DNA of 64,000 bases. It comes from Acidobacteria bacterium RIFCSPLOWO2_12_FULL_68_19. Lineage in GTDB: Bacteria > Acidobacteriota > Vicinamibacteria > Vicinamibacterales > UBA2999. The position numbers and the translations under genes are program-made. Positions 795 through 42,200 of this stretch are shown here, in pieces (position 1 is the first letter of the stretch; each line of letters begins with the position of its first letter). Under the pieces are notes generated by a model. That model searched no databases, had not been told where the DNA came from, and was given only the letters and a program-made list of their open reading frames with translations. The stretch lies in assembly GCA_001767525.1 (NCBI GenBank), contig MELF01000048.1, positions 1 to 64,000 of the forward strand, read 5' to 3'.

Positions 795-1203
795 GGTTCT
801 CCGCCCTGATTCTAATGACTGACGTCGCCCTGCACTGAGTGGTAATCGTAAACGCGGTATGCCACACGCCCGCACAGAGGGGACACCGCGGGACGCGCAT
901 CGGTGAGTCGGCCGTGGGCCGCATGAACGTCAGGATGATGCTGATCATCAGCGTCGACGACCTCCATTGCGGAGCATCTTAGGCCGCGAGCTTGCGCTAA
1001 CGTAAACTGGGGCGTGTTAGTAAGACGAACTTTGGGCAGGAGCACACAGAAGCGCAGCTCGGCAACGTCCTGGTGCTCATCCTTCTCACGCAGCAACTCA
1101 CCCGATGCGCGCGACTCGACTACAAAACGCGACAGAGCCAGAAGTTGCAGTCGCGCTATCGACCCTGTTGCGTGACCGCTGGTAATCCACGGTGGGGCGT
1201 ACG
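795..1203. other. Intergenic stretch without an assigned gene
   Basis: Between two outward-facing hypothetical genes. On the minus strand, frames around 815-950 contain a CPLC motif that could be part of a small zinc ribbon, but the Cys-containing parts fall in two different frames and neither frame is convincing alone. No terminator or strong promoter was recognised. Confidence 0.35.
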
Positions 1204-1608
1204 ATGCTCAACGATCGCCAAAGTGCCGTTCAAGGCTACTACGAAGGACAGTATCAAGGCGCGGAGACACAGCCTCAGCGACGGAAGGTCGTTGAAGAAT
1301 ACGTGTCGCGGTTTCCTTTCCTAGCCTTCCGGGCGGATTCTTGGTTCTACCCTATCTACCGTGCATGGCGGAGTTCGAATAACCCCAAGGACCGAGCTCT
1401 GCTCCGGGCCATGGCTCGCGGTCTGACCAGCCAGACCAGCCTGCTTGGGGGCCCGGTTGATGACGAGGCGCTTCGCCGCATCAGACTTGCACAGGCGGCT
1501 GCGGCGCTCAAGAACGCAAAGGAAAGCAGGAAGATCAATCACCTCTACAGGCTGTGGTTCGAGGGCAAATCGAGCTGCATGGGGTCGGTGGTGCCCATGT
1601 TGAGGTAG
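1204..1608 (+). CDS. Hypothetical protein, possibly 3' truncated
   Basis: Unrecognised protein of about 134 residues. It is charged in the first third (MLNDRQSAVQGYY) and Trp/Tyr/Arg-rich in the middle (WFYPIYRAW), with an Ala/Lys-rich helix near the end. No signal peptide or membrane segment is visible. The start at 1204 follows a GGGG tract seven bases upstream; an in-frame GTG lies at 1192. The last 21 codons overlap a short minus-strand gene (1545-1679) that is itself cut off. A recombination junction near 1545-1560 probably joins two unrelated pieces, so the C-terminus may not be native. Confidence 0.45.
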   Translation: MLNDRQSAVQGYYEGQYQGAETQPQRRKVVEEYVSRFPFLAFRADSWFYPIYRAWRSSNNPKDRALLRAMARGLTSQTSLLGGPVDDEALRRIRLAQAAAALKNAKESRKINHLYRLWFEGKSSCMGSVVPMLR

Positions 1609-1679
1609 TCGTAGGCTTGCGCCATGAGGCGATCGCCCTCGGCCATCCACTCCCGGACGTCTTCAAGATTGCTCTGCAT
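1545..1679 (-). pseudogene. Truncated gene following the VirB8-like gene
   Basis: A 44-codon reading frame starts at 1679, eight bases after the stop of the VirB8-like gene, with GGTGGAG four bases before its ATG. It was therefore the next gene of the same transfer operon. The product begins MQSNLEDVREWMAEGDRL, is acidic and helical, and ends abruptly in unrelated sequence. T4SS components are normally much longer, so only the N-terminus survives. Which component it was cannot be told from 44 residues. Confidence 0.5.
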
Positions 1680-1687
1680 GGCTCCAC

Positions 1688-2290
1688 CTACCGGAACGCC
1701 TGATCCACTCGGAAATAGGTCACCTGAAGCCCCAACGGGTTGACGCGGATGAACGCGTTGGGCACGACGTCGCGAAGCACGAAATCAAACTGGGCGACGT
1801 AGGTCTCACGCCTGCGCTCCTGCCTGGTGCCGAGCGCGAGGTAGTGCTTCTCGAAATCAACGGACGCCTTGTACGGCGACTTGTTCAGCTCGCCGAACGT
1901 GACGTTCTTCACCTCGATGTCCACCTCGTCGTCTGACGCGTTCGTCAGGAACGCCTCGATCACGCGGGATTGCTCGTTCTGGGCGATCGTGGCGTTCGCC
2001 AGCGCGGGGTCCAGGAAGAACAGCGAGTCCGGATAGTCGCGCTGGATGGTTGCGCGCAGCCGGCTGAAGTGCATGGCCACGAAGCGCGTGAGGAAGTAGC
2101 GCAGCTCGGCCGCCTGCGGCCGATACGTCGCCGCGTCGTAGGCGACCGCTTCCGCTCGACCCACATCGTCGATCCGGATGACCAGCGGTTTCACATTGGC
2201 GTACTTCGCCTGCGTCCGAAAGTTCAGTCCGACGAGGCCCAGGGCGAGGAGCGCGAGAAGGACGAGCGCGATCTTGAGGTACGTGTTCAT
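1688..2290 (-). CDS. VirB8/TrbF-family type IV secretion protein
   Basis: Inner-membrane component of a conjugation-type IV secretion channel. The product is about 200 residues with the family layout: a very short cytoplasmic N-terminus, one membrane helix (residues about 5-24, rich in Leu/Ala) and a periplasmic NTF2-like domain. VirB8/TrbF proteins are usually 220-240 residues, so this is near full length. The start at 2290 (MNTYLKIALVLLALL) puts the membrane helix at the N-terminus as expected. It is followed by a truncated gene at 1679. Its start codon directly abuts the 5' break of the oppositely oriented coupling-protein fragment at 2291, an arrangement not expected in an intact operon. 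Confidence 0.8.
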   Translation of the reverse strand: MNTYLKIALVLLALLALGLVGLNFRTQAKYANVKPLVIRIDDVGRAEAVAYDAATYRPQAAELRYFLTRFVAMHFSRLRATIQRDYPDSLFFLDPALANATIAQNEQSRVIEAFLTNASDDEVDIEVKNVTFGELNKSPYKASVDFEKHYLALGTRQERRRETYVAQFDFVLRDVVPNAFIRVNPLGLQVTYFRVDQAFR

Positions 2291-3520
2291 CACGAGTGCG
2301 GAGCCGTACAGTTCGCGGAGATCTACCACTACGCCATCGATGAAAGCCTGATTCAACAGGCGATCGAACGCGGAGAGCAGAAGTTTGGTGGGACAGGCGC
2401 CGGAATCCGGATCGCCGGCTTCGATTTCCACGTCACCATGGCAGACAGCGCCTGGCCGGACTGGACCGACGATCCAGAAGGCCAGTTCCTCCATGAACAC
2501 ACCCCCGAACTGGAGACGTTCCTCACCGAGCAAGGGATTGCGTTTGTCGTGGAGCGCCACGCGCGCGACGCCGCCTGGTCCGACCAGCGCGAGCAGTTCG
2601 AAGCGGTCAAACGTTGGTATAAGCACAATTGGATGCGGCTGGAACCGCGCCTGCGATCGTCCATCGTCGAGGGTATCGTGGTGTTCCTGTCGTTGTTCGA
2701 CGACAACCCGGTCGTCGCGCGGGCGTTTTGTCCGCCGAAATCGGCCTATACCCACCCACCGAAACCCGGCCAACGACACGGAACACCGCTGCCCCCGATG
2801 GAGCAGCTTTTGGAAGCCGGCAAGGTGATCGTCTTGAACTTTCCGGTGGGCCTGAATCCGGGACTCGCGCGCGCGCTCGGCGTGATGGTTAAGATGGATT
2901 TCCAACGCGCAGTGGTGTCACGCATCCCGAAGATCGCCGCTGCGCCTCGCAGACCGTGGCGGGATCTCCTGTTTGTCTGTGACGAATACCATAGCTTTGC
3001 CACCACGGGCGACACGGACCCGTCTGGCGACGAACGCACGTTCGCGCTGAGTCGGCAGGCGCGCCTGATTCCCATTGTCGCGACCCAAAGCATCAGCTCG
3101 CTGCGATCAGCCATTCAAGGCGAGGAATCGTGGCGCACCTTGCTGCAGTGTTTCCGCACGAAGATCTTCCTGGCCTCGTCCGATGAATTCACCGCCCGCA
3201 TTGCCGCGGAACTGTGCGGGCGCGCGGAGCAGCTCAAGCCGTCGTACCAGCTCACCGAAGCCGGGCAAGACGCGCGTGTCTCGCTCCTCACCGGCCGCGC
3301 GGCTGCTCATAAGTCCACCGTGACGGCCAGCAAGCACTACTCGTTTCAGGTCGACTACGTCTTCCAGCCCAAGGTCTTCAGCGAGCTGCAGAACGGCCAG
3401 GCCATCGTCCTCCCGTACGACGGCCTGAATCCGCAACCGCCGACGTACTGTTACTTGAAACCGCACTACCTCGACGTCGACACGAGCTACTTCCGCCACG
3501 TGGCCGCGGGTGCGTTGTGA
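2291..3520 (+). pseudogene. VirD4/TraG-type coupling ATPase, N-terminally truncated
   Basis: Codes for the C-terminal part of a conjugative DNA-transfer ATPase. Visible are a Walker B-like stretch (DLLFVCDEYHSF), a following TRQ/VATQS-type segment (VATQSISSL) and the C-terminal TraM-binding-like region. The N-terminal membrane anchor and Walker A P-loop are missing. Upstream of 2291 the frame only mirrors the VirB8-like gene on the other strand, and no plausible start is present at the junction. The first in-frame Met is well inside the domain. The stop overlaps the GTG of the VirB11-like gene by four bases (GTGA), showing that these two were operon partners. Confidence 0.7.
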
Positions 3521-4545
3521 GCAGCTTTGCGCGCATCCTCCCGTTCGTGAAGCCGCTCGAACATTTGCTGCTCGATCCAACGGTGACCGAAGTCATGGTC
3601 AATGCCGGCGGCCGGCGCGTATTCGTCGAGCGCGAGGGCACGCTTGAACAGGTGCCGGAGCTGGTGCTCGACGAGCGCAACCTCAAGGTTGCGATCAAGA
3701 ACATCGCGCGCACGTGTGGCGACGAAATTTCGGAGGCCCAGCCGGTCCTCGACGCGCGGCTGGAGGACGGCTCGCGCGTGGCGGCGATGTTCCCGCCGTG
3801 CTCAGTGAACGGACCGACGCTCACGATCCGCAAATTCACACGACGGTATTCGCTGCAAGATCTGCTCGACGTCCAGAGCCTCACACCGGAGCTTGCGTCG
3901 CAGCTTCAAGATGCTGTTCGAGGCCGCCGCAACATCCTGATCTCCGGTGGCACCGGCACCGGAAAGACCACGCTCCTGAACGCACTCGCCGCCACGATTC
4001 CCGACGCGGATCGCATCGTCCTGATCGAAGAGACCTCCGAGATCATGATCGACAAGCCAAACCTTGTGCGGTTCGAGGCACGACGCGCACAAACGCCCCT
4101 CGGCCAGGAGGCGCCCTTGCCGGCCATCACCATCGCGGACCTGCTCCGCGCGACGTTGCGGCATCGGCCCGACCGCATCCTCGTGGGCGAAGTGCGTGGC
4201 CCAGAAGCCTTTGACCTGCTACAGGCGCTCAACACCGGACACCTCGGCAGTATGAGCACCATCCATGCGAACTCGGCTGAGCAGGCCCTGACGCGCTTCG
4301 CGCACTGTGTCCTCACCGCTAACGTCGGGCTTCCGCATGCCAGCACGCGCGAGGCGATCGCCTTCGCGATTCACCTGGTCGCGCACATCGCGCGCGACGG
4401 GGGCCGACGTCGTGTCACGGAGGTCGTCGCGATTCGTGGCTATGACGCTCGAACCGACACGTTCGCACTAGAAACGCGGTACGCACTACCTGTCGCCGAG
4501 CGCGACGAGGTAGGTGCGTGTGTCCCGTCCGCCGGCCTTCAGTGA
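3517..4545 (+). CDS. VirB11/TrbB/CpaF-family secretion ATPase
   Basis: Cytoplasmic hexameric ATPase that powers a conjugative type IV system. The 342-residue length is normal for TrbB/VirB11. An N-terminal domain (about 1-130) is followed by the RecA-like domain with a P-loop (GGTGTGKTT), an Asp box (IVLIEETSEI), a Walker B-like region (RPDRILVGEVRG) and a His box (GHLGSMSTIHAN). The GTG start overlaps the upstream stop by four bases, implying translational coupling. It appears intact, although its neighbours are broken and no other mating-pair genes follow. Confidence 0.85.
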   Translation: MSSFARILPFVKPLEHLLLDPTVTEVMVNAGGRRVFVEREGTLEQVPELVLDERNLKVAIKNIARTCGDEISEAQPVLDARLEDGSRVAAMFPPCSVNGPTLTIRKFTRRYSLQDLLDVQSLTPELASQLQDAVRGRRNILISGGTGTGKTTLLNALAATIPDADRIVLIEETSEIMIDKPNLVRFEARRAQTPLGQEAPLPAITIADLLRATLRHRPDRILVGEVRGPEAFDLLQALNTGHLGSMSTIHANSAEQALTRFAHCVLTANVGLPHASTREAIAFAIHLVAHIARDGGRRRVTEVVAIRGYDARTDTFALETRYALPVAERDEVGACVPSAGLQ

Positions 4546-4568
4546 AGTCTCGGCCGGTGCTCGTCAGT

Positions 4569-4617
4569 GTCAACGCGCTCGGCGGGCCGCCTCGCCCCGC
4601 GGGGCTCCGGCGTTGAC
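4569..4617. repeat. Inverted repeat GTCAACGC/GCGTTGAC
   Basis: Arms at 4569-4576 and 4610-4617 are perfect complements and enclose a GC-rich segment with further self-pairing (CGGCGGGCCGCC...). It lies about 25 bases after the VirB11-like stop and could act as a weak terminator or be a recombination relic. No T-tract follows. Confidence 0.4.
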
Positions 4618-4741
4618 GCTGCCTCCGCGCCGGCTTGGGCATTGGCAATTACGGCCGGCAGGGCAGGTTGACGCCGAGGTAGTACCAGCCGGGCTCCGCT
4701 CGTGATGCGAGCCGCTGGCCAATGCGGAAGGCGCACCGAGG

Positions 4742-5041
4742 TCATCTGAGCGAAAGGCTTCGATACGCGAGCAGAAACTGACCAGGTTCAAGGAACTTGT
4801 GCATTTCGTACTTCGACGCGTAGACGAGGCGTAGTGCACGACGACTGGCACTGCTGTAGTGAGAAAGGTAATTGCGGATCTTGTACACTTCGTCGATCCG
4901 CTCTGTATGGGTCGCAGTGATACACAGAAACGGGTTGCTCTCTTCCGGTAATATCTTCTTCGAGAAACCCTTGAGTGCGCCAAAGCTTTGGAAATCTCTA
5001 TACGACGCGCCGATGATTAGCGCGTGACACAGATCCCATGC
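4742..5041 (-). pseudogene. HEPN-like protein fragment without a start
   Basis: Reading on the minus strand from about 5041 to the TGA at 4744-4742 gives a protein-like run of about 100 residues with normal composition and no start codon. It contains RNYLSH, which fits the Rx4H signature of HEPN RNases, in the context KIRNYLSHYSSASRRAL, followed by a helical C-terminus. The 5' part is missing where it meets a plus-strand gene tail at 5038. It is best read as the C-terminal half of a HEPN-type toxin or defence protein, left behind by deletion. Confidence 0.45.
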
Positions 5042-5103
5042 GCGAACGCATCCTCGAAGCGTACGCGGAGTACGAGGAGGCGGCGGAGGCGGCGACCGCC
5101 TGA
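5038..5103 (+). pseudogene. Short gene tail ahead of a terminator
   Basis: A 21-codon frame (MRERILEAYAEYEEAAEAA...) with strongly acidic, helical composition. A near-perfect intrinsic terminator follows 16 bases after the stop, so this is probably the surviving 3' end of a longer plus-strand gene. The ATG may be internal. The parent gene cannot be identified. Confidence 0.35.
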
Positions 5104-5119
5104 CGTCAGTCGTCCATCG

Positions 5120-5153
5120 ACGGGGCGCCTCGGCGCTCCGTCCCTTTTTTTTT
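5120..5153 (+). terminator. Intrinsic terminator
   Basis: Ten-base stem ACGGGGCGCC (5120-5129) pairs with GGCGCTCCGT (5132-5141), including one G-T pair. It is followed by CCC and nine T residues (5145-5153). This is the clearest rho-independent terminator in the window, placed directly after the short gene tail. Confidence 0.8.
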
Positions 5154-5295
5154 CGCCTAGAAAGGCCCTCGCATCGAGAGCGCCGGAAAAACAGGGGAGG
5201 ATGGGGTGTGGGAAGAACCTGGAAAGCCTAGCCTAACTTGACCAAATACTTGACCAGTTGACCACTCACGGCTGCCATAAATCGCCGTAAGTGGT

Positions 5296-5382
5296 TGGTG
5301 CGGAAGGGGGGACTCGAACCCCCACGGTATTGCTACCGCCAGCCCCTCAAGCTGGTGCGTCTGCCAATTCCGCCACTTCCGC
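5296..5382 (-). tRNA. tRNA-Leu (anticodon GAG)
   Basis: Class II tRNA of 87 bases including an encoded CCA. Acceptor GCGGAAG (5382-5376) pairs with CTTCCGC next to the CCA at 5298-5296. The anticodon stem CCAGC/GCTGG encloses TTGAGGG (anticodon GAG). There is a long variable arm and a T-loop TTCGAGT. The 3' end faces the decayed element, which makes it the likely integration site. Confidence 0.95.
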
Positions 5383-7626: not shown

Positions 7627-8916
7627 ATGGAGCCATCGAGCCCCTATCGACCTCGAGTATCACGGGAAACGCGGTTGCTGCTCACGGCCGGCGTCGTGGC
7701 CGTCGCCGCGCTGTGGCTCCTCGCTCGTATTCGATTCCAGGAACGTCCCGTTACGCCCAACCCGGTGCCGGCGCTTCTCAGTCAGCTGGCCAACAGACCG
7801 ACGTACGACGATCTCGCGGCAGAGATCGCGCAGCTCCAGGCTCGTGTGGAGCCCTCTCTTCTCGTGCTCGACGTGCCTTCGGCGTTCCCAGGCTCGCCGT
7901 CGGCGTCACATTGGCTCGGGGCGCTCAGGCTCCGTGACGACCTCGCGGTGACGCTGCTCCCGGCCGGGTCGCATCCAGAGCTGTGGAACGACAGGCGTGT
8001 CCTCGCCCGCGATCCGGCGTCCGGCTTGGTCGTGGTGCGCGTACCGAGCCAGGTGCCCGCACCTCCTGTGGTCCCCTGGACACCCCGCCGACTGGAGCAG
8101 CCGCGGTATCTCATCGCCAGCGACGTGTCCTCACAGAGCGTATCACTCCGCCCAGTCTTCGTGGGGTCGCTCGCTCCGATGGAGAGTCCGTTGTGGTCGG
8201 AGCCGATCTGGGCGGTGCCGGGGCGCAGCGACCTGGCGCCGGGCTCGTTCGTGTTCACGAACAGCGCGGAACTGGTAGGTCTGGTATTCGCGCACGATGC
8301 CGAGTCTGTCGTGGTGCCTGCCGCGACCGTGCTCGCGGAAGCGGATCGTCTGCTGAACACGCCGAGGGGACCCGTGGGGACGGTCGGCCTCCAGGTGCAA
8401 GCCCTGACCGCGGTAGTCGCGTCGGTGACCGGTGCTCCCGTCGGGGTGGTCGTCACCTGGGTTGAACAGGATGGCGCCGCTGCCGGCCAGCTGATGGTGG
8501 GCGACGTCATCGAAGCGATTGACGGTCGCGCGCTCGCGACTTCTCAGCATTGGGACGTTCGTCTGGCCCGTCTGCTCGCCGGCGAGATGCTGACGCTCCG
8601 CGTGCGCAGGCGCGGCGAAGTCCAGGAGGTGGTGTTGACTGCGGCCGCCGTTGCGTCGCCGCCCGTCAGCCGGGCGCTTGGCCTCACACTACGCGGGCGG
8701 ACGGGGATTGGCACTGACGTGGTCCGTGTCGAGCGGGCGTCCGCGGCGGATCGAGCCGGACTGGCGGCCGGTGACATCATCACGCTCGTCGCCGATGTCC
8801 ACGCGCCGACGCCAGCCCAGGTGACACGGTCCTTCGCCTCCGTTCGTGAGGGTCAGCGCGTGATGGTCGCCGTCACGCGGGGCGACGTGCACCTTGTGAC
8901 AACTTTGGAACGATGA
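7627..8916 (+). CDS. Membrane-anchored PDZ protein, HtrA/DegS-like pseudoprotease
   Basis: 429 residues: short cytoplasmic tail, one membrane helix (about 19-35), a periplasmic domain with trypsin-like spacing (about 55-250) and two PDZ domains (about 258-340 and 345-425; GVVVTWVEQDGAAAGQL and GIGTDVVRVERASAAD). The catalytic signature is missing. Where HtrA proteins have GNSGGP the sequence reads LAPGSFVFTNSAE, and no TNxHV histidine motif is seen, so it is probably a binding or sensor protein rather than a protease. The stop overlaps the ATG of the next gene by four bases, placing it first in an operon with two antiporter-like proteins and the trehalose synthase fusion. Confidence 0.75.
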   Translation: MEPSSPYRPRVSRETRLLLTAGVVAVAALWLLARIRFQERPVTPNPVPALLSQLANRPTYDDLAAEIAQLQARVEPSLLVLDVPSAFPGSPSASHWLGALRLRDDLAVTLLPAGSHPELWNDRRVLARDPASGLVVVRVPSQVPAPPVVPWTPRRLEQPRYLIASDVSSQSVSLRPVFVGSLAPMESPLWSEPIWAVPGRSDLAPGSFVFTNSAELVGLVFAHDAESVVVPAATVLAEADRLLNTPRGPVGTVGLQVQALTAVVASVTGAPVGVVVTWVEQDGAAAGQLMVGDVIEAIDGRALATSQHWDVRLARLLAGEMLTLRVRRRGEVQEVVLTAAAVASPPVSRALGLTLRGRTGIGTDVVRVERASAADRAGLAAGDIITLVADVHAPTPAQVTRSFASVREGQRVMVAVTRGDVHLVTTLER

Positions 8917-10088
8917 CCGCCCCTCCGGCCGGCGATCCCTGCGGCCTGCCTGACCCGTCTCTCGGCCTGCCCATCGACGACGCGCTCGGACAGGCCCAGG
9001 AGCCGGATGGGCGGCGGTCGCGCAGATGGCGCGTGTTGGGCTGGTCCGCGACCTCGGCTCCAGTGGCGCTCCTCCTCGTAGGTGGACTTGTGTTCGGTCC
9101 TCGGGGCCTCAGCCTGCTCTCCCCGGCCATGCTGTCGTTGCTCAATCCGGTGGTTCCCGTCGCCCTCGCGGCGCTGGGCGTACTTGTGGGACTGGGCGTG
9201 GGCGACCGTCGACCGGACGACCGGCGTGTGTTCGCCGCCGCCGGTCTCGATGCCGCCGTCACCATGCTCGTGGTCTCGGCCGGGATCGGGGTGATCGGAT
9301 TCGCCGCGATGTCTTCGATCGTCCGGCCCTTCTGGACGCTGGTCTTGGCCAGCGGCATCTGCGCCGCGACGTCCCTGACGTTGCCGACGGACAATCCCCT
9401 GGAACCTCGGACAACCGCCGTCCGCATTATCGAGCTCGGCGTCCTGCTTCCGATCGTGGCGGGTGCGCTCCTGCTCGCGTCGCTCCGCGCGGGCTCCTCC
9501 GTGGGAGCCGTGGCCCTGGTGGCGCAAGCGTCGGGCGTCACCCTGGCGCTGGCGGCCGCCGGATGGTTGCTACTGACGCGAGTTTCGTCTGAAACGGAAG
9601 AACGCGTCTTGGCCGTGTCGGCGCTCCTGCTCGTCGGCGGCGTCGCGGACGCCTTGTCCCTGTCCGCGCTGTTCGGTGGTCTGGTCGCTGGTGTCTTCTG
9701 GCGGTATGCAGGACGGCACCCGCGCGATACGATCAGTCGGGATGTACTCTTCGTGCAGCACCCCCTCCTCGTGCTCGTGCTGCTGGTGGCTGGGGCCCGT
9801 GTGGATCTCTCGCTCGCGTCACTCGGACTTGGGGCGGGCTATCTCGTGCTCCGTGTCGTTGGTCGGCTGGCCGGCGGCGCCGTGGCTGGGCGTGTCATCG
9901 GTGTGAACGCGCCGCGTGACCTGAGGCTCTCCCTCCTCCCGCCTGGCGTCTTCGGCGTAGCGTTTGCGCTCAACGCGGTCAGCGTCGTCGGCGCGGACGC
10001 GTCTATCCTACTCGCGGCTGTGGTGGCTGGCACGATCGGCTCCGAATTCGTCGCGCTCCTGCTGCCACCTCGGAGCGTCACCGAGTGA
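8913..10088 (+). CDS. CPA-type cation:proton antiporter-like membrane protein
   Basis: 391 residues. A Pro-rich, charged cytoplasmic N-terminus (about 1-45) is followed by ten or so hydrophobic helices with the Leu/Val/Gly-rich texture of Na+/H+ exchanger domains (PF00999). One acidic residue pair in a helix context is visible (SLTLPTDNPLEP), but the canonical two-Asp or Lys-Asp core of CPA2 transporters is not obvious. The protein could be a divergent antiporter or a partner subunit. It overlaps both neighbours by four bases (ATGA upstream, GTGA downstream), so expression with the following antiporter-OtsA fusion is almost certainly coupled. Confidence 0.65.
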   Translation: MTAPPAGDPCGLPDPSLGLPIDDALGQAQEPDGRRSRRWRVLGWSATSAPVALLLVGGLVFGPRGLSLLSPAMLSLLNPVVPVALAALGVLVGLGVGDRRPDDRRVFAAAGLDAAVTMLVVSAGIGVIGFAAMSSIVRPFWTLVLASGICAATSLTLPTDNPLEPRTTAVRIIELGVLLPIVAGALLLASLRAGSSVGAVALVAQASGVTLALAAAGWLLLTRVSSETEERVLAVSALLLVGGVADALSLSALFGGLVAGVFWRYAGRHPRDTISRDVLFVQHPLLVLVLLVAGARVDLSLASLGLGAGYLVLRVVGRLAGGAVAGRVIGVNAPRDLRLSLLPPGVFGVAFALNAVSVVGADASILLAAVVAGTIGSEFVALLLPPRSVTE

Positions 10089-12844
10089 GGCGCCTCCTGG
10101 CGCTCGCGCTGGCGATCGGCGCGATGGTCTGGGTGCGCCGTCTCGGCATCCAGGCGACGGCCGGTTCGGCCGCCGCGGCGCTGGCTCTGGGATTTGCCCT
10201 GATGGGCGCGTCCGTCATGGGCGACGCGCTGCGACGGTTCAAGGCCCCACGCCTCACTGGATATCTCCTCTTCGGCGTGATCGTCGGACCGTATCTCGGC
10301 AACTTGATCACGCAACCGATGGCCGTCCAGCTACAGGTCGTGACCGGGATCGCCACGACCCTGATTGCGCTGATCGCTGGCCTGACCCTGAGTGTGGAGC
10401 GCCTGGGATCCCGCCTCGGGGCGATCACACGCGTGACCGCCGCGACGCTGGTCGTGGCCATCGCCGGTCTATTCGCGGTGGGCTGGCTGGTGTGGCCGTG
10501 GCTGCCCATCGCCGCCGACGCTGTGGGAGTGCAACGGCTGGCCATGCTGGCCTTGCTGGTCGTGATGGTCGTCTCCTTCTCGCCGACGATGACCGCGGCG
10601 GTGGTCGCCGACTCGGGCGCACGCGGGCGGCTGAGCGAGACGGTGCTGACGATAGTCGTGCTGGCCGACCTCGTGATCCTGGTGCTGTTCTCCGTGTCGA
10701 TGCAGCTCGCGCGCGTGGTGTTCGACACCAGCGAAGGCCGTAGCGTCGAGGTGCTGGCCCAGCTCGGGTGGGAGATCGGTGGGGCCGTCGCGTTTGGCGT
10801 GCTCATCGGCGTCTTGTTCGCGCTCTACCTGCGCTACATCGGCCGAGAGGTCACGCTCGTCCTGCTCGCGGTGTGCGCCGTGCTCAGTCAGGTCGGCAGC
10901 ACGCAGCAGCTGGAGCCACTGCTGGCGGCCGTTGCCGCGGGCTTGGTCATCGAGAACTTGGCCGTCGCGCAGGGCGACACCCTTCGGGCCGCCGTACGCC
11001 GTGGCGCGCCACCGGTCCTGGTGGTCTTCTTCGTGGCGGTGGGCGCATCCCTTCGGCTCGACGCGCTGGCCACCATCGGGCTCAGCGCGCTCGCATTGTC
11101 AGGAGTCCGACTCGGATTCATCAGGCTTGGCGTTCGGGTAGGCGTGAAGCTGTCCGCGCTGCCCGAACCGGTTGGGCGGTACGCGTGGACGGGCCTGGTG
11201 TCGCAGGCTGGGATCACCCTGGGGTTCGCATCCCTGATCGCCACCGAATTTCCGGGGTGGGGCAGCCAGGTGCAGTTGTTGCTGGTCGCGTCGATCGCGA
11301 TTCACGAGCTTGTGGGACCGCTTCTGTTTCGCCGCGGGTTGGCTCTGGCCGGCGAACTCGATGCGCAGGTGCCGCGCCCCCTCGTGGTCGTGTCCAACCG
11401 CGAGCCGTACCTGCACAGCCAGGATGGGGCTGGCCGAATTGGCGTGAAAGCTGCGACGGGTGGTGTCGCCGTAGCGCTCGACGCCCTGATGCGCGAACGA
11501 GGCGGTGAGTGGATCGCGCACGGGGCCGGTCCCGCGGACCGCCTGGTGGTTGACGCGACCGACAAGGTGCGGGTCCCTCCCGAGAGCCCCTCGTACGTGC
11601 TTCGGCGTCTGTGGCTCGAGGAACCCACCTTCTCGGCCTACTACGGGGGCTTCGCGAACGAAGGCCTGTGGCCCCTGTGTCACGTGGTCGATGTCCGTCC
11701 GAAGTTTCGGAGCGAAGACTGGGCGGCCTATCAGGACGTCAACGCGCGGTTCGCCGCCGCCATCCACGCGGCGATCGCGGCGTCCGACGCGCCGGTGTTC
11801 ATCCAGGACTATCACCTGGCCCTCGTGGCGCCGGCGCTGCGGGCACTGCGGCCCGATGCCCGAACCGCCCTCTTCTGGCACATTCCGTGGCCCTATCCGG
11901 ATCGCCTCCGCATCTGCCCGTGGCGGAGAGAGCTGGTCGCGGGGTTGCTCGCCAACGACCTGATTGCTTTTCAGCTGGAACGCGACCGCCGCAACTTCCT
12001 GATGGCGGCTGAAGAAGAGCTGCACGCCGAAGTGGAGATCGAGGCATCGCGCGTTCGATTCGGCGGGCGCTCGACCACGGTCGTCGCGGTGCCGATCGGC
12101 GTGGACTACGACCGCATTCAAAGCTTCGCCGCCGACCCCTCGCTCCTACAGGAACAGCAGCGCCTGCGGGAACTGCTCGGCCTTCGCGCGGACATCATCG
12201 GGCTCGGCGTCGATCGGCTCGACTACACCAAGGGCATTCCGGAACGCCTCGACGCGCTCGATGCGCTCATGGCGCGGCGGCCGGATCTGCGCGGGAGGAT
12301 GACCTTCGTCCAGATTGGCGTCCCGTCGCGTTCGGACCTCGGGAGCTATGCGGCGATCGAGGCGAAGATTGGCCAGCGGATCACCAACCTCAACGCGCGG
12401 CACGCCGTGACGGGCGGTGCGCCGGTGGTGTCGTACTACACGACGCCACTGGGGGCGTTCAGCCTCGTGGCGCTGTACCGTCTCGCGCACTTCTGCATCG
12501 TCAGCTCGCTGCACGACGGGATGAACCTCGTCGCCAAGGAGTTCGTCGCCGCCCGGGACGATGAGCATGGTGTCCTGGTCCTCAGCGCGCTCGCGGGCGC
12601 CGCCCAGGAGCTCGAGGACGCGGTCATCATCAATCCCTACGACGTCGATGCGTTCGCGGCTGCCCTGGTACGCGCGATCGAGATGACAGAAGACGAGCAG
12701 GTGACGCGTATGCGGGCGATGCGGAAGGTGGTCGCTGGACGGAACGTGTTCAATTGGGCGTCCGACATTCTGGGGGGTCTCGAGAGTCTGTGGACCAAAC
12801 CGTTGCTCTATGCGGTTCGGGGGTGGGAAGAGACGTCGGTGTGA
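10085..12844 (+). CDS. Fusion: CPA2 cation/proton antiporter + trehalose-6-phosphate synthase
   Basis: One uninterrupted 919-residue frame. Residues 1 to about 420 form a Kef/NapA-like membrane domain with about 11-12 helices; a helix with SETVLTIVVLADLVIL carries Asp195 at the position typical of CPA2 transporters. From residue 431 a complete GT20 domain follows: VVVSNREPY at the start, GGVAVALDAL, YYGGFANEGLWPLC, the catalytic-region IQDYHL (574-578), phosphate/UDP-binding RLDYTKG (Arg711, Lys716) and DGMNLVAKEF (811-820). GT20 synthases transfer glucose from UDP-glucose to glucose-6-phosphate. OtsA is normally a free cytosolic protein of about 470 residues. The GTG start overlaps the upstream stop by four bases, and otsB follows about 700 bp later. 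Confidence 0.85.
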   Translation: MRRLLALALAIGAMVWVRRLGIQATAGSAAAALALGFALMGASVMGDALRRFKAPRLTGYLLFGVIVGPYLGNLITQPMAVQLQVVTGIATTLIALIAGLTLSVERLGSRLGAITRVTAATLVVAIAGLFAVGWLVWPWLPIAADAVGVQRLAMLALLVVMVVSFSPTMTAAVVADSGARGRLSETVLTIVVLADLVILVLFSVSMQLARVVFDTSEGRSVEVLAQLGWEIGGAVAFGVLIGVLFALYLRYIGREVTLVLLAVCAVLSQVGSTQQLEPLLAAVAAGLVIENLAVAQGDTLRAAVRRGAPPVLVVFFVAVGASLRLDALATIGLSALALSGVRLGFIRLGVRVGVKLSALPEPVGRYAWTGLVSQAGITLGFASLIATEFPGWGSQVQLLLVASIAIHELVGPLLFRRGLALAGELDAQVPRPLVVVSNREPYLHSQDGAGRIGVKAATGGVAVALDALMRERGGEWIAHGAGPADRLVVDATDKVRVPPESPSYVLRRLWLEEPTFSAYYGGFANEGLWPLCHVVDVRPKFRSEDWAAYQDVNARFAAAIHAAIAASDAPVFIQDYHLALVAPALRALRPDARTALFWHIPWPYPDRLRICPWRRELVAGLLANDLIAFQLERDRRNFLMAAEEELHAEVEIEASRVRFGGRSTTVVAVPIGVDYDRIQSFAADPSLLQEQQRLRELLGLRADIIGLGVDRLDYTKGIPERLDALDALMARRPDLRGRMTFVQIGVPSRSDLGSYAAIEAKIGQRITNLNARHAVTGGAPVVSYYTTPLGAFSLVALYRLAHFCIVSSLHDGMNLVAKEFVAARDDEHGVLVLSALAGAAQELEDAVIINPYDVDAFAAALVRAIEMTEDEQVTRMRAMRKVVAGRNVFNWASDILGGLESLWTKPLLYAVRGWEETSV

Positions 12845-13421
12845 GGTCCCATTCGGCGCTCACGACTGTAAGCGCAAGCAGTGCCAGCATCACGTGAAGG
12901 AAGGCGCCGCGCGGTGCCGCCTCTTGCACGACCGTCTCTACCGCAGAAGCGCGGCATCGCCACGCCACGCTGGTTCCAGCGACCCATGCCACAATGAGCA
13001 GGATCGGGTCGGCGCGGGAGATCGCCCCATCGCGCAGGACCAGGGCGCCGACTCCGAGAGCTGCGACGGTGAGGGCTGGAATCAGGAGCACTTCACGTCG
13101 CTCCACGCGCAGAGCGGAGTGGGCGACAACAGGGAACAGCCCAGGAGCCAGAGAGCCCTGAGTGAAGACGGAGCCGATCGAATCGCCCACGTTGATTTCA
13201 CCGTACCCAAGATGGGACGAGACGAGCGAGTTGATGACTTCGGGTATGTCCGTGCCAATCGCCACAAGGGTGATGCCGACGAGGAACGGCTGGACATGGA
13301 GCTTGTCTGCGACCGCAACCGCGTGGTGGAGGGCAAAGCGACCCGACCGCCTGACAGAACGACGTCGTGACCGCAAGGAAGAGCCTGCTGACAGGCGCCT
13401 CCTGAACCCTCGCCTGGGCAA
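12750..13421 (-). pseudogene. Half-length sodium/calcium exchanger (CaCA) remnant
   Basis: The frame contains one alpha-repeat of a Na+/Ca2+ antiporter: LVGITLVAIGTDIPEVINSL followed by GEINVGDSIGSVFTQGS and two further hydrophobic helices. CaCA proteins have two such repeats and about 300-360 residues. Here the second repeat is absent and the first helix is not in frame: a hydrophobic candidate (RLFLAVTTSFCQAV) lies in another frame around 13370, suggesting a frameshift. The last codons run backwards into the OtsA domain gene and look non-native. It is most likely a decayed gene covering about 12850-13420. Confidence 0.6.
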
Positions 13422-13534
13422 CGGAACGTCGGTTCATTGGTCCGCCATGTGCACGAGAAGCTTATCCGACCGTCGTGCGGGCTATGCCCAGGAAATCGCC
13501 GGAGCCACCCAGCCACGCCCGGAGAGACCGCGAC

Positions 13535-14299
13535 ATGAGCCGTACAGCCGATATTCTTGCGATGCGTCGACAACGCATCCTCCGGGCGTTCGCGTCGTCC
13601 AACGTTCTCCTGGCCATCGACTACGACGGCACGCTCGCGCCGATTGCGCCCACGCCGGATCAGGCGCGCATGCGAGTCCGCACACGCAGGCTGTTCACGC
13701 AGGTCGCGCACCGCTACCCATCCATTGCGATCTCCGGGCGGCCGCTCGATGACATCGCACGGCGACTGGTCGGGATTCCGATCAGGTCGGTGTTTGGCAA
13801 TTACGGCGGCGAGCCGTCGCCGCAGGGTAAACCACCCGTGCGCGTCGGCGCCTGGGTGACGCATCTGAGAGAACGGCTGTCGACGCTCTCCGGCGTCGTC
13901 GTCGAGGACAAGGGCTATTCCGTCACGATCCACTATCGTCGTGCGCGCAACAAGGACCGGGCGATTGCAGCTATTCACGATGCGGCACGCGCGCTTCCCG
14001 GCGCGAGAGTCCTCGGCGGCGTAGAGGCGGTGACGCTCCTGCCCCGGGAGGGACCGGACAAAGGGGTCGCCCTGCAGCGGGCACGGCGATTGCTACGGTG
14101 CGACACGGCCATCTACGTGGGCGATGACGACACGGACGAAGATGCGTTCGCGTCTGCTCACCCCGATCGCCTGCTCTCAATCCGCGTCGGACCTTCCCGA
14201 AAGTCCAGGGCGCGATACCACCTCCAACGGCAGGCGGATATCGACAGACTGCTGCAATCGCTGCTCACGCTGAGGCAGGGGACGTCGTCTTCGGCATAG
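13535..14299 (+). CDS. otsB: Trehalose-6-phosphate phosphatase
   Basis: HAD-superfamily hydrolase of 254 residues that removes phosphate from trehalose-6-phosphate, completing the pathway begun by the upstream GT20 fusion. All HAD elements are present: nucleophile motif DYDGTLAP (Asp29, Asp31), motif II ISGRPLDD, the phosphate-contact Lys in GPDKGVAL and the metal-binding VGDDDTDEDAF. The ATG at 13535 has GGAG ten bases upstream; an in-frame ATG at 13475 would add an Arg/Pro-rich stretch unlike the family. It lies in the same orientation as the fusion gene but is separated from it by the decayed exchanger, so it may have its own promoter. Confidence 0.9.
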   Translation: MSRTADILAMRRQRILRAFASSNVLLAIDYDGTLAPIAPTPDQARMRVRTRRLFTQVAHRYPSIAISGRPLDDIARRLVGIPIRSVFGNYGGEPSPQGKPPVRVGAWVTHLRERLSTLSGVVVEDKGYSVTIHYRRARNKDRAIAAIHDAARALPGARVLGGVEAVTLLPREGPDKGVALQRARRLLRCDTAIYVGDDDTDEDAFASAHPDRLLSIRVGPSRKSRARYHLQRQADIDRLLQSLLTLRQGTSSSA

Positions 14300-39229: not shown

Positions 39230-42200
39230 ACCTTCTCCAGCGTCACGAGAAACCCCTTGTACTCGGGGGCGAACGAGTTGGGATCGACGATGGTCGGCGT
39301 GACGAGGTTGGCGAGCGACCCTTGCTGCTGGCCGCGTCCGAGGAAGCCCCAGTGAATCGGGAATCCGATCTGATACACGGTGCGCCCGCCGACCTGCATC
39401 GGCTTGATGCGGCGCGTCACCATGGCCTTGCCTTCGATCGCGCCGCGCGCCGACGTCACCCGGACCCGGTCGCCGCTGGCAATCGCCTTCTCCCGGGCCA
39501 GCGCCTCGGGGATCTCGACGAAGAACTCCGGCTGGAGCTGCACGTTGTACGGGTTGTTCTTGGTCCAGTAATGGAAGTGCTCCGTGAGCCGGTACGTCGT
39601 GCAGACGATGGGGAACTTGTCGGGCGTGCCGAGGACGTCGAACGCGGTGGCGAAGGGGCGAACCGCCGGGTTCGAGCTCTGCGCGGGGTGCAGCGCGTTC
39701 GGCACCGGCGACTCCGCCGGCTCGTAGTGCTCCGACCACGGCCCCTCGGCGAACTGCCCCGGGACAAACAGCCGGGCCACGCCTTCCGGCAGCATGATGA
39801 AGGCGCCCAGATCGGCATCGGGTGGGCTGTCGACCGTGTAGTCGGGCGTGTCGCCGACCCAGCGCTGGCCGTTCCACGCGATCCCGACGCGGGTGGGATC
39901 CCACGGCCGTCCCTCGGCGTCGGCCGAGCAGCGGTTGTAGAGGATGCGCCGGTTGGCCGGCCAGCTCACCGTCCACTCCGGGTAGCGCCCCAGGCCGCTC
40001 GGATCGGCGTACGAGCGGCGCTGCGTCAGATTGCCGGCGTCGGTGTACATACCGATGTAGAGCCAGTTGCCCGCGAGCGTCGAGCCGTCCGCGCGCGTGT
40101 CGAGGAAGCGCGAGAGCTGCTGTCCGCGCCGCACCACCACGGCGCCGCTCGCGTCGCGCACCTCGTCCACCGCCCAGCCGTTGAGTTCCTTGCACACCTC
40201 GTCGAGGGACGGGCTGAGCGGGTTCGTGTACCACCAGTTCAGATGACGGACCGGGTCCGGGAACGTGCCGCCGTCGCGCTCGTACAGCTCGCGCACCTTC
40301 AGGAAGATGCGCGCGATGATCTCCTGATCGGGTTTGGCCTCTCCCGGCGGATCGACCGCCTTCCACTTCCACTGGATCCAGCGCGCCGAGTTGACGAAGG
40401 TGCCGTCCTTCTCGGCGAAGTTGGCCGCCGGCAGCAGGAAGACCTCCGTTTGCACCTCCTCGGGCGCGAGATCGACGAGCGAGAGGATGTCTGGCCGCCA
40501 GAACGCCGCCGTCTCGTGCTCGAAGTTCTCGGCGACGACCAGCCACTCGAGCTTGGCGAGCGCCGCGATCGCCTTGCGCGAGTGCGGGCCGTTGCTCACC
40601 GGGTTCATCCCGAAGCTGAACAACCCCTCCAGCTCGCCGCGATACATGCGGTCGAAGATGTACGCCCAGCTCCAGTTCTCGTACCCGCCGGCGTCGGCCA
40701 GCGGCAGGCGGGGATGGAACCCGTACCCGAAGTCGTTCCGCGAAGTGGCCGCATCCCCGTAGTAGGCCTTGAGCTGGCTGACGGCGAACCGATCGGTGTT
40801 GGCGTTGAAGTTGGTGGAATTGGGGCGGAGCGCCCGCGGGGTCACCGCCGCGAGAAACGCCCGGAGCGTCTCGTGGTCCGCCTTCGGCACCGGGATGTAG
40901 CCGGGCAGGTTGTGGTACGCCATGCCGCAGTCGGTGCCCCCCTGGATGTTGGCGTGGCCGCGCAGCGCGTTGAGCCCGCCGCCGGGCCGGCCGACGTTGC
41001 CGAGGAGCAGTTGCAGCATCGCCGCCGTGTGAATGAGCTGGACGGAATGGCTGTGGTGCGTCCACCCGAGCGCGTACAGCATCGTGCCGGCGCGATCGGC
41101 CGTGTAGGTCGAGGTGATGACGTCGGCCGCCGCGAGGAACTCCTCGGCGCCGCAGCCGCAGATGGTCGACACCAGCTCCGGCGTGTAGCGCGCGTAGAAG
41201 CGCTGCATCACCTGGAACACCGACCGCGGGTGCTGGAGCGTCGGATCGACGCGGGCGAAGCCGTCCGGCCCGAGGTCGTAGCTCCAGCTCGAGATGTCCG
41301 CGTAGACCTTCCGCTCGTCGTCCCAGCCGGAGAAGACGCCCTTGGCTTCGTCGAAGGCGTACCGCTCGTGGACGAGGAACGATGCGTTGGTGAAGAGCCG
41401 GACGTATTCCTCGTGGTAGCGGTTGCGGGTCAGGGCGTAATTGATGAGCCCGGCCAGGAACGCGATGTCGCTGCCGGCGCGGATCTGGACGAACCGATCC
41501 GCCACCGCCGCCGTGCGGTTGAACCGCGGATCAACCGAGACGAGCGTCGCGTTCCGGGTCCGCTTCGCCTCCATGACGAAGCGGAATCCCACCGGGTGGT
41601 TCTCGGCGGGGTTGCCCCCCATGGCGAGCACGACGTCGGCGTTCCTGATGTCGGTCCAGCCATTGGTCATGGCGCCCCGACCGAACGTGGCGGCCAAACT
41701 GGCCACCGTGGGGCCGTGTCATATCCGCGACTGCTGCTCGATCGGGATGACGCCGAGCCCCGCGCGAAACGCCTTGACGAGCAGGTAGTTGATCTCGTTG
41801 GTGTCGGTGCAGCCGCCGATCACGCCCATGGAGGTCAGCGCGTTGATCCCGCGGCCCGCCGCGTCCTTCACGATGAGCCGCCTGTCGCGCGTCTCCTTCG
41901 TCAGGCGCGCGATGCGGTCGATCGCCCAGTCCCAGGTCCGCTCTTCCCAGACGCGGCTGCCCGGCGCCCGGTATCGCACCTTCGTCAGGCGCCGGTCGTT
42001 GACGATGTTCTGCTTCAGCGTGATGCCCTTGGGACAGAGGGTGCCCTGATTGATCGGATGATCCGCGTCGCCTTCGACGTGGACCACCGTCGGCCGGACG
42101 TTGCGAGACCTGTCGCCGAGCGTGTGGATGATCACGCCGCAACTGACCGAGCAGTACGGGCAGGTGGAGCGCGTCTCGGTGGTGCGGGCGATCTTCAGCT

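Follow-up and report, generated by a model that had tools for sequence, protein, structure and literature searches.

An antiporter-like protein fused to trehalose-6-phosphate synthase in a conserved operon of Vicinamibacterales

The sequence considered here is a window of 64,000 nucleotides, positions 1 to 64,000 of contig MELF01000048.1 of Acidobacteria bacterium RIFCSPLOWO2_12_FULL_68_19 (order Vicinamibacterales, assembly GCA_001767525.1), in which positions 7627-12844 of the + strand carry a three-gene operon. The first gene codes for a membrane-anchored, HtrA-like pseudoprotease of 429 amino acids with two PDZ domains (7627..8916). It is followed by AP1, an antiporter-like protein of 391 amino acids with the fold of the cation/proton antiporters (CPA; 8913..10088), then by AP2::OtsA, a protein of 919 amino acids (10085..12844), where a single open frame joins a CPA2-type antiporter domain, AP2 (10085..11368), to a trehalose-6-phosphate synthase of the GT20 family, OtsA (11369..12841). 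Neighbouring stops and starts share four bases, ATGA at 8913-8916 between pseudoprotease and AP1, and GTGA at 10085-10088 between AP1 and the fusion. Downstream on the same strand lies otsB, the gene of trehalose-6-phosphate phosphatase (13475..14299). An earlier note on this DNA had described three genes overlapping in this way and had seen in them a PDZ pseudoprotease, two antiporter-like proteins and trehalose synthesis; the coordinates bear out the overlaps, and families and folds the rest. A scan for sigma-70 promoters found none, while a scan against Rfam returned no element near the operon.

Both halves of the fusion belong to well-delineated families. AP2 matches PF00999 at residues 48-388 with 70.7 bits (gathering threshold 26.2) and, in the structural model of the fusion, this half has the CPA fold, superposing on NapA (4bwz, Z 33.0 over 370 residues, root-mean-square deviation (rmsd) 3.8) and on NHA2 (7p1i, Z 33.4 over 388 residues, rmsd 3.9). 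A conserved aspartate in the fifth transmembrane segment (TM5) is a feature of the ion and proton site of these exchangers. It is present in AP2 as Asp195 (codon 10667-10669), and is invariant in our alignment A5. The OtsA domain matches PF00982 at residues 433-897 with 363.8 bits (gathering threshold 32.5), and its model resembles mycobacterial OtsA (5jio, Z 39.8). The motifs SNR, TGG, YYGGF, LWPL, QDYHL, HIP, GVDRLDYTKG and DGMNLVAKE align with those of solved synthases and, at the positions that we take from E. coli OtsA to be those of catalytic and substrate-binding residues, the catalytic motifs of the fused enzyme look complete. Both domains are under purifying selection: the ratio of nonsynonymous to synonymous substitutions (dN/dS) is 0.09-0.11 for the OtsA domain (nine pairs), a strong constraint, and 0.10-0.19 for AP2.

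The product of otsB reaches 93.1 bits against TIGR00685 (cut-off 68.05), matches PF02358, and carries the HAD phosphatase motifs DYDGT and GDDDTDED. In this genome, which is 100% complete in 52 contigs, the fusion is the sole OtsA match and the gene at 13475 the sole PF02358 match; TreY and TreS were not found, in searches of the genome that covered these four families only. The fusion is the only route to trehalose-6-phosphate found in this organism.

AP1 is less easily recognized. It has no Pfam match at E 0.01, PF00999 matching only four of the 52 members of alignment A4, and a sequence search of the PDB returned nothing at E 1. Its AlphaFold model, with a predicted local distance difference test (pLDDT) score of 85.7, nevertheless matches the folds of SOS1, NhaP and NapA at Z 27-29, placing it among CPA proteins (SOS1 7y3e: Z 29.0, 344 residues, rmsd 3.8), and profile comparison with hhalign makes it a homologue of AP2 (99.2%, E 7e-20). 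The position of the TM5 aspartate is here a glycine, Gly176. The aspartate is also missing in the nearest relatives of the window, and altogether in 16 of 81 distinct AP1-AP2 pairs, being present in the AP1 of the other 65. With dN/dS values of 0.23-0.30 (nine pairs), AP1 remains under purifying selection, weaker than that acting on AP2 and OtsA; because this selection persists despite the lost aspartate, AP1 is a retained pseudo-antiporter and not a decaying gene. A separate case is the locus L045 (the same as L093), where the first half of AP1 is largely lost, TM5 site included, next to an intact AP2::OtsA.

The protein encoded upstream combines one N-terminal hydrophobic helix, seen by inspection, with a trypsin-like part (Trypsin_2, below threshold at E 0.031) and two PDZ stretches (PDZ_2 and PDZ_6 matches in a Pfam profile search, PDZ_2 at E 5e-16). 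Its profile aligns with DegP and DegQ. The HtrA catalytic triad is not kept: at what we assume to be the HtrA catalytic positions, the aspartate column holds a glycine, and a GNSGG-type nucleophile motif is absent from all 32 aligned orthologues. It evolves at dN/dS 0.19-0.39 (six pairs). This is probably an accessory subunit, with a predicted location in the periplasm. At the loci L050-L053, the protein upstream of AP1 is shortened to 254-276 amino acids, and both PDZ domains are gone.

We now consider how far this arrangement extends. Of the 162 genomes of the order, 28 have the AP2::OtsA fusion, our own included; 27 of the copies are close to full length, and the other is truncated where its contig ends. 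These genomes span six families, with 48-88% identity to the protein of the window, near-constant length and no internal stop; an artefact of assembly or frame was considered, and is rejected since 28 genomes carry the fusion without a stop. The closest named carriers are Vicinamibacterales and Acidobacteria metagenome-assembled genomes such as Luteitalea sp. Dino_bin7, all 20 named fused records being of this kind. Wide regions were fetched for 26 of the 28 fused loci (the remaining two are the window itself and G139, where the contig measures just 4.4 kb). In 25 of them AP1 is the gene immediately upstream of the fusion, the 26th being cut by a contig end; it shares the four-base overlap with AP2 at 23 of 25 junctions, as judged from automatically chosen starts, and at 23 of the 26 loci the pseudoprotease comes before it. 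The earlier note had proposed to look for conservation of the gene order, and it is indeed kept: AP1 then AP2::OtsA, mostly with the pseudoprotease in front, recur across the six families. One further copy (L199, G091:C44) looks broken, with pieces of AP2, OtsA and otsB in separate frames.

The antiporter pair reaches further than the fusion. Ten more loci (L057-L066) have the order pseudoprotease, AP1 and AP2 with no fusion. A scan of named genomes yielded 80 loci, spread over Acidobacteriota, Myxococcota (Myxococcus, Corallococcus, Archangium) and Gemmatimonadota. In 72 of these AP1 stands immediately before AP2, and of the remaining eight, five are truncated at the end of a contig. Of 396 Acidobacteriota genomes drawn, 41 gave matches to AP1, often weak ones; an AP2-like frame adjoined AP1 in 13 of 15 short loci with weaker matches. 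The ancient core is therefore the AP1-AP2 pair, accompanied by the pseudoprotease and OtsA only in loci of the Vicinamibacteria type. The module comprises the pseudoprotease, AP1 and AP2::OtsA, and otsB often accompanies it.

Trehalose genes also recur around the fusion. Counting otsB, treS, treY, treZ, maltokinase, OtsAB and GH15 besides the fused OtsA itself, a trehalose-related neighbour is found, within the region examined, at 18 of 27 fused loci, at three of 11 unfused loci of Acidobacteriota and at none of 44 others (mostly Myxococcota and Gemmatimonadota), figures that come with no random-region control. One locus, L042, enters the 18 through a GH15 gene and an otsB match of 30%, while a weak TreZ-like match in L065 was left uncounted. 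The commonest recurring flank in neighbour clustering is otsB, at 13 loci. The link to trehalose that the earlier note had put forward thus extends to the relatives of the window. At two loci the connection is of another type: L048 (11938-18539, - strand) and L049 (11940-18696, - strand) have maltokinase, treZ and treY on the same strand, leading directly into AP1 and then AP2::OtsA, in the place of the pseudoprotease, which was not found there. Their TreY proteins score 908.5 and 914.9 bits (cut-off 498.65) and their TreZ proteins 656.3 and 629.9 (cut-off 538.8). L047 has a second, bifunctional OtsA-OtsB gene (797-3064, + strand), tail to tail with the fusion. When ten flanking frames of relatives were tested for family membership, five had none and the other five were unrelated to trehalose; a flanking frame of L060 likewise had no family match.

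Fused sequences fall in two clades, with two changes of state, on both the AP2-domain tree (50 rows) and the OtsA tree (52 rows). A single fused clade is not rejected by the approximately unbiased test (P = 0.209, or 0.406 when two long rows are dropped), so that one or two fusion events are possible on these trees. At L057, otsA and otsB are divergent from unfused pseudoprotease-AP1-AP2 genes, plausibly the layout from which the fusion arose.

Several neighbours of the operon in the window do not belong to it. The earlier note had otsB following in the same direction, and it does; fusion and otsB are nevertheless separated by 630 bases holding an antisense frame that had gone unmentioned, and they are adjacent only in some lineages. 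This frame (12750..13421, - strand; PF01699) resembles a Na/Ca exchanger of half length and, matching the N-terminal part of its family only (NF008005 positions 25-137 of 325), has the appearance of a gene remnant. The operon is flanked on one side by a divergent putative Na+/H+ antiporter of PF07399 (5989..7428, - strand), on the other by a GH15 gene with a trehalase-like N-terminus (PF19291; 14326..16137, - strand) that converges with otsB. The earlier note had drawn these two flanking genes into the set: they are present, yet as members of the module the PF07399 antiporter, the exchanger fragment and GH15 are rejected, as they recur in none, none and one (L042) of 40 fetched regions of relatives, respectively. 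Elsewhere in the window, frames resembling conjugation or secretion ATPases (~1970-5382; VirB11/CpaF-like by eye) adjoin a tRNA-Leu gene (5296-5382, - strand), perhaps a border of an integrated element, and a match to Rfam SECIS_3 (41666-41724, - strand; 64.8 bits, gathering threshold 63) may mark a selenoprotein gene.

What might such an operon be for? We infer from its anatomy a membrane module in which cation/proton exchange and trehalose synthesis are coupled, a reading to which we give an even chance. CPA exchangers act as dimers. The operon would make a single inner-membrane module in which AP1 and AP2, because they are paralogous subunits encoded in tandem by overlapping genes, would probably form a heterodimer. 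AP2, which keeps Asp195, would carry the exchange, and AP1, which in the window has lost the aspartate, would be structural or regulatory. OtsA, at the C-terminus of AP2, would face the cytoplasm, going by the fold, and the HtrA-like pseudoprotease, on the periplasmic side, would be an accessory or a sensor. Export of a cation in exchange for H+, the likeliest candidates being K+ and Na+, would then be tied to synthesis of trehalose-6-phosphate: under hyperosmotic stress an ionic osmolyte would be swapped for trehalose, OtsB completing the latter. This coupling is proposed because E. coli, upon a salt upshift, first accumulates potassium glutamate and then replaces it by trehalose, according to the title of a work cited in PMC5066198. 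The fusion suggests that ion exchange and osmolyte synthesis are linked in one machine. A more explicit version, where the flux or the occupancy of the ion in a heterodimeric cation/H+ antiporter, made of a pseudo-antiporter protomer and an OtsA-bearing protomer, would set the rate of trehalose synthesis while the periplasmic pseudoprotease acts as a gate, can be put forward only tentatively.

The pattern of ion sites belongs to this discussion. The TM5 aspartate is kept in AP2 in 34 of 38 cases, its losses being confined to L051-L054, and in 78 of the 81 distinct AP1-AP2 pairs; in every one of the 81 pairs at least one partner has it. Such a rule of one aspartate per pair is suggestive only, and here begin the observations that weigh against a coupled module. 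With the residue missing from AP1 in 16 of 81 pairs and from AP2 in three, chance alone predicts only ~0.6 double losses; and the AP2 losses in L051-L053 form a single clade where OtsA and AP1 are kept. The model of the whole fusion has a predicted template-modelling score (pTM) of 0.54, which makes the relative placing of its two halves uncertain. OtsA misses the NCBIfam equivalog cut-off of TIGR02400, with 408.5 of 564.85 bits. In many relatives otsB is not beside the fusion, including the six nearest fetched (L031-L036), and three of 12 fused genomes searched had no PF02358 match. Finally, outside Acidobacteriota the tandem goes without pseudoprotease, as judged by profile, and without a trehalose neighbour at any of the 44 loci; trehalose is therefore not its ancestral role.

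The first of the other explanations is that the antiporter pair and OtsA each function on their own: the fusion would do no more than secure co-expression of OtsA or its placement at the membrane, and nothing would be coupled. The AP1-AP2 pair does occur unaccompanied by OtsA in Myxococcota, Gemmatimonadota and many Acidobacteriota, and an OtsA of the same clade, 62-68% identical, stands alone in other families. We still hold independence to be somewhat unlikely, for the fusion persists over six families at near-constant length, its OtsA is strongly constrained, and the clade whose AP2 has lost the aspartate has kept OtsA and AP1 all the same.

That clade can be read otherwise. The membrane part might be a sensor, a transceptor with no bulk transport, that would switch OtsA on allosterically when ions or pH change. 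A window AP1 devoid of its ion-site aspartate, as in its nearest relatives, and the AP2 proteins of L051-L053 would suit such a role, as would a pseudoprotease, which suggests a regulatory, non-catalytic subunit. The near-invariance of the AP2 aspartate is what one expects of a working exchanger instead, and we deem the sensor doubtful.

Some relatives of the CPA fold carry organic solutes, and a synthase tethered to a transporter fits product channelling, so that the pair could be imagined to export trehalose or trehalose-6-phosphate made by the attached enzyme. This is most improbable: the best fold matches are cation/H+ exchangers, the conserved TM5 aspartate is a mark of an ion or proton site, and the pair exists at all those loci with no trehalose gene nearby. 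As for a chance neighbourhood of unrelated stress genes, it describes the unconserved outer neighbours, the PF07399 antiporter and the CaCA remnant, and is refuted for the core, whose order and four-base overlaps recur across families, with one open frame in 28 genomes.

If the coupled module exists as we picture it, it would be the first antiporter to carry its own enzyme for making an osmolyte, as far as the open-access literature shows; no description of the fusion or of the system was found there, most subscription journals lying outside that scope. Bacteria have to coordinate fast ionic osmoregulation, moving K+ in or out, with a slower production of compatible solutes, and how they do so is an open question; a covalent antiporter-OtsA protein would bring both steps together in one polypeptide. 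The operon is also an example of paralogous antiporter subunits that have stayed side by side in three phyla, the ion site of one being degraded in some lineages. Trehalose synthesis is moreover reported, in the part of the source available, to be enriched in the SPL group of Acidobacteriota classes (PMC11245096).

Known systems resemble the operon piece by piece. The pseudoprotease shares with HtrA, DegP and DegQ the layout of an N-terminal anchor, a trypsin-like part and two PDZ domains, but not the conserved catalytic residues, and its short forms in L050-L053 do without PDZ. OtsA and otsB have the domain families (GT20 and HAD phosphatase), fold and catalytic motifs of the classical OtsA/OtsB pathway, whereas the present OtsA is covalently joined to an antiporter and divergent enough to fall below the equivalog cut-off. 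AP2 has PF00999 and the NapA/NHA2 fold in common with CPA2 antiporters. Among these, Q1D5P4 of M. xanthus, a protein of 432 amino acids and 14 transmembrane segments placed in a 'novel subfamily', TC 2.A.37.6.1 (PMC3924187, as far as its accessible text goes), is probably an AP2, judging by length and organism alone and not by sequence comparison: the unfused AP2 proteins that we found in Myxococcus and Corallococcus are mostly of 432 amino acids. Neither an AP1 partner nor a pseudoprotease nor a fusion to OtsA is mentioned in that text. In SLC9C1 and SOS1, which appear among the fold matches, a membrane exchanger is likewise continued by a cytosolic part, which is a large ligand-binding regulator in their case and a biosynthetic enzyme in AP2::OtsA. 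The nearest printed analogue found is the msc-gt-tpsp operon of Thermoproteus tenax where, according to the accessible part of the paper, a trehalose-6-phosphate synthase gene shares an operon with that of a mechanosensitive channel, a membrane protein for ion flow, in a proposed osmotic-stress unit; the synthase is activated when the complex forms, and the organization is called unique to Thermoproteus and Pyrobaculum (PMC3634074). That system, as described there, is archaeal; its channel is no antiporter and stands as a protein of its own, its synthase is fused to its phosphatase and activated by another glycosyltransferase, and no pseudoprotease takes part. The operon of the window does not have this set of a synthase-phosphatase fusion, a glycosyltransferase activator and a mechanosensitive channel. 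Each of its parts can be assigned to a known family or is similar to one; what seems new is the combination of an antiporter with OtsA, with a coupling that we infer.

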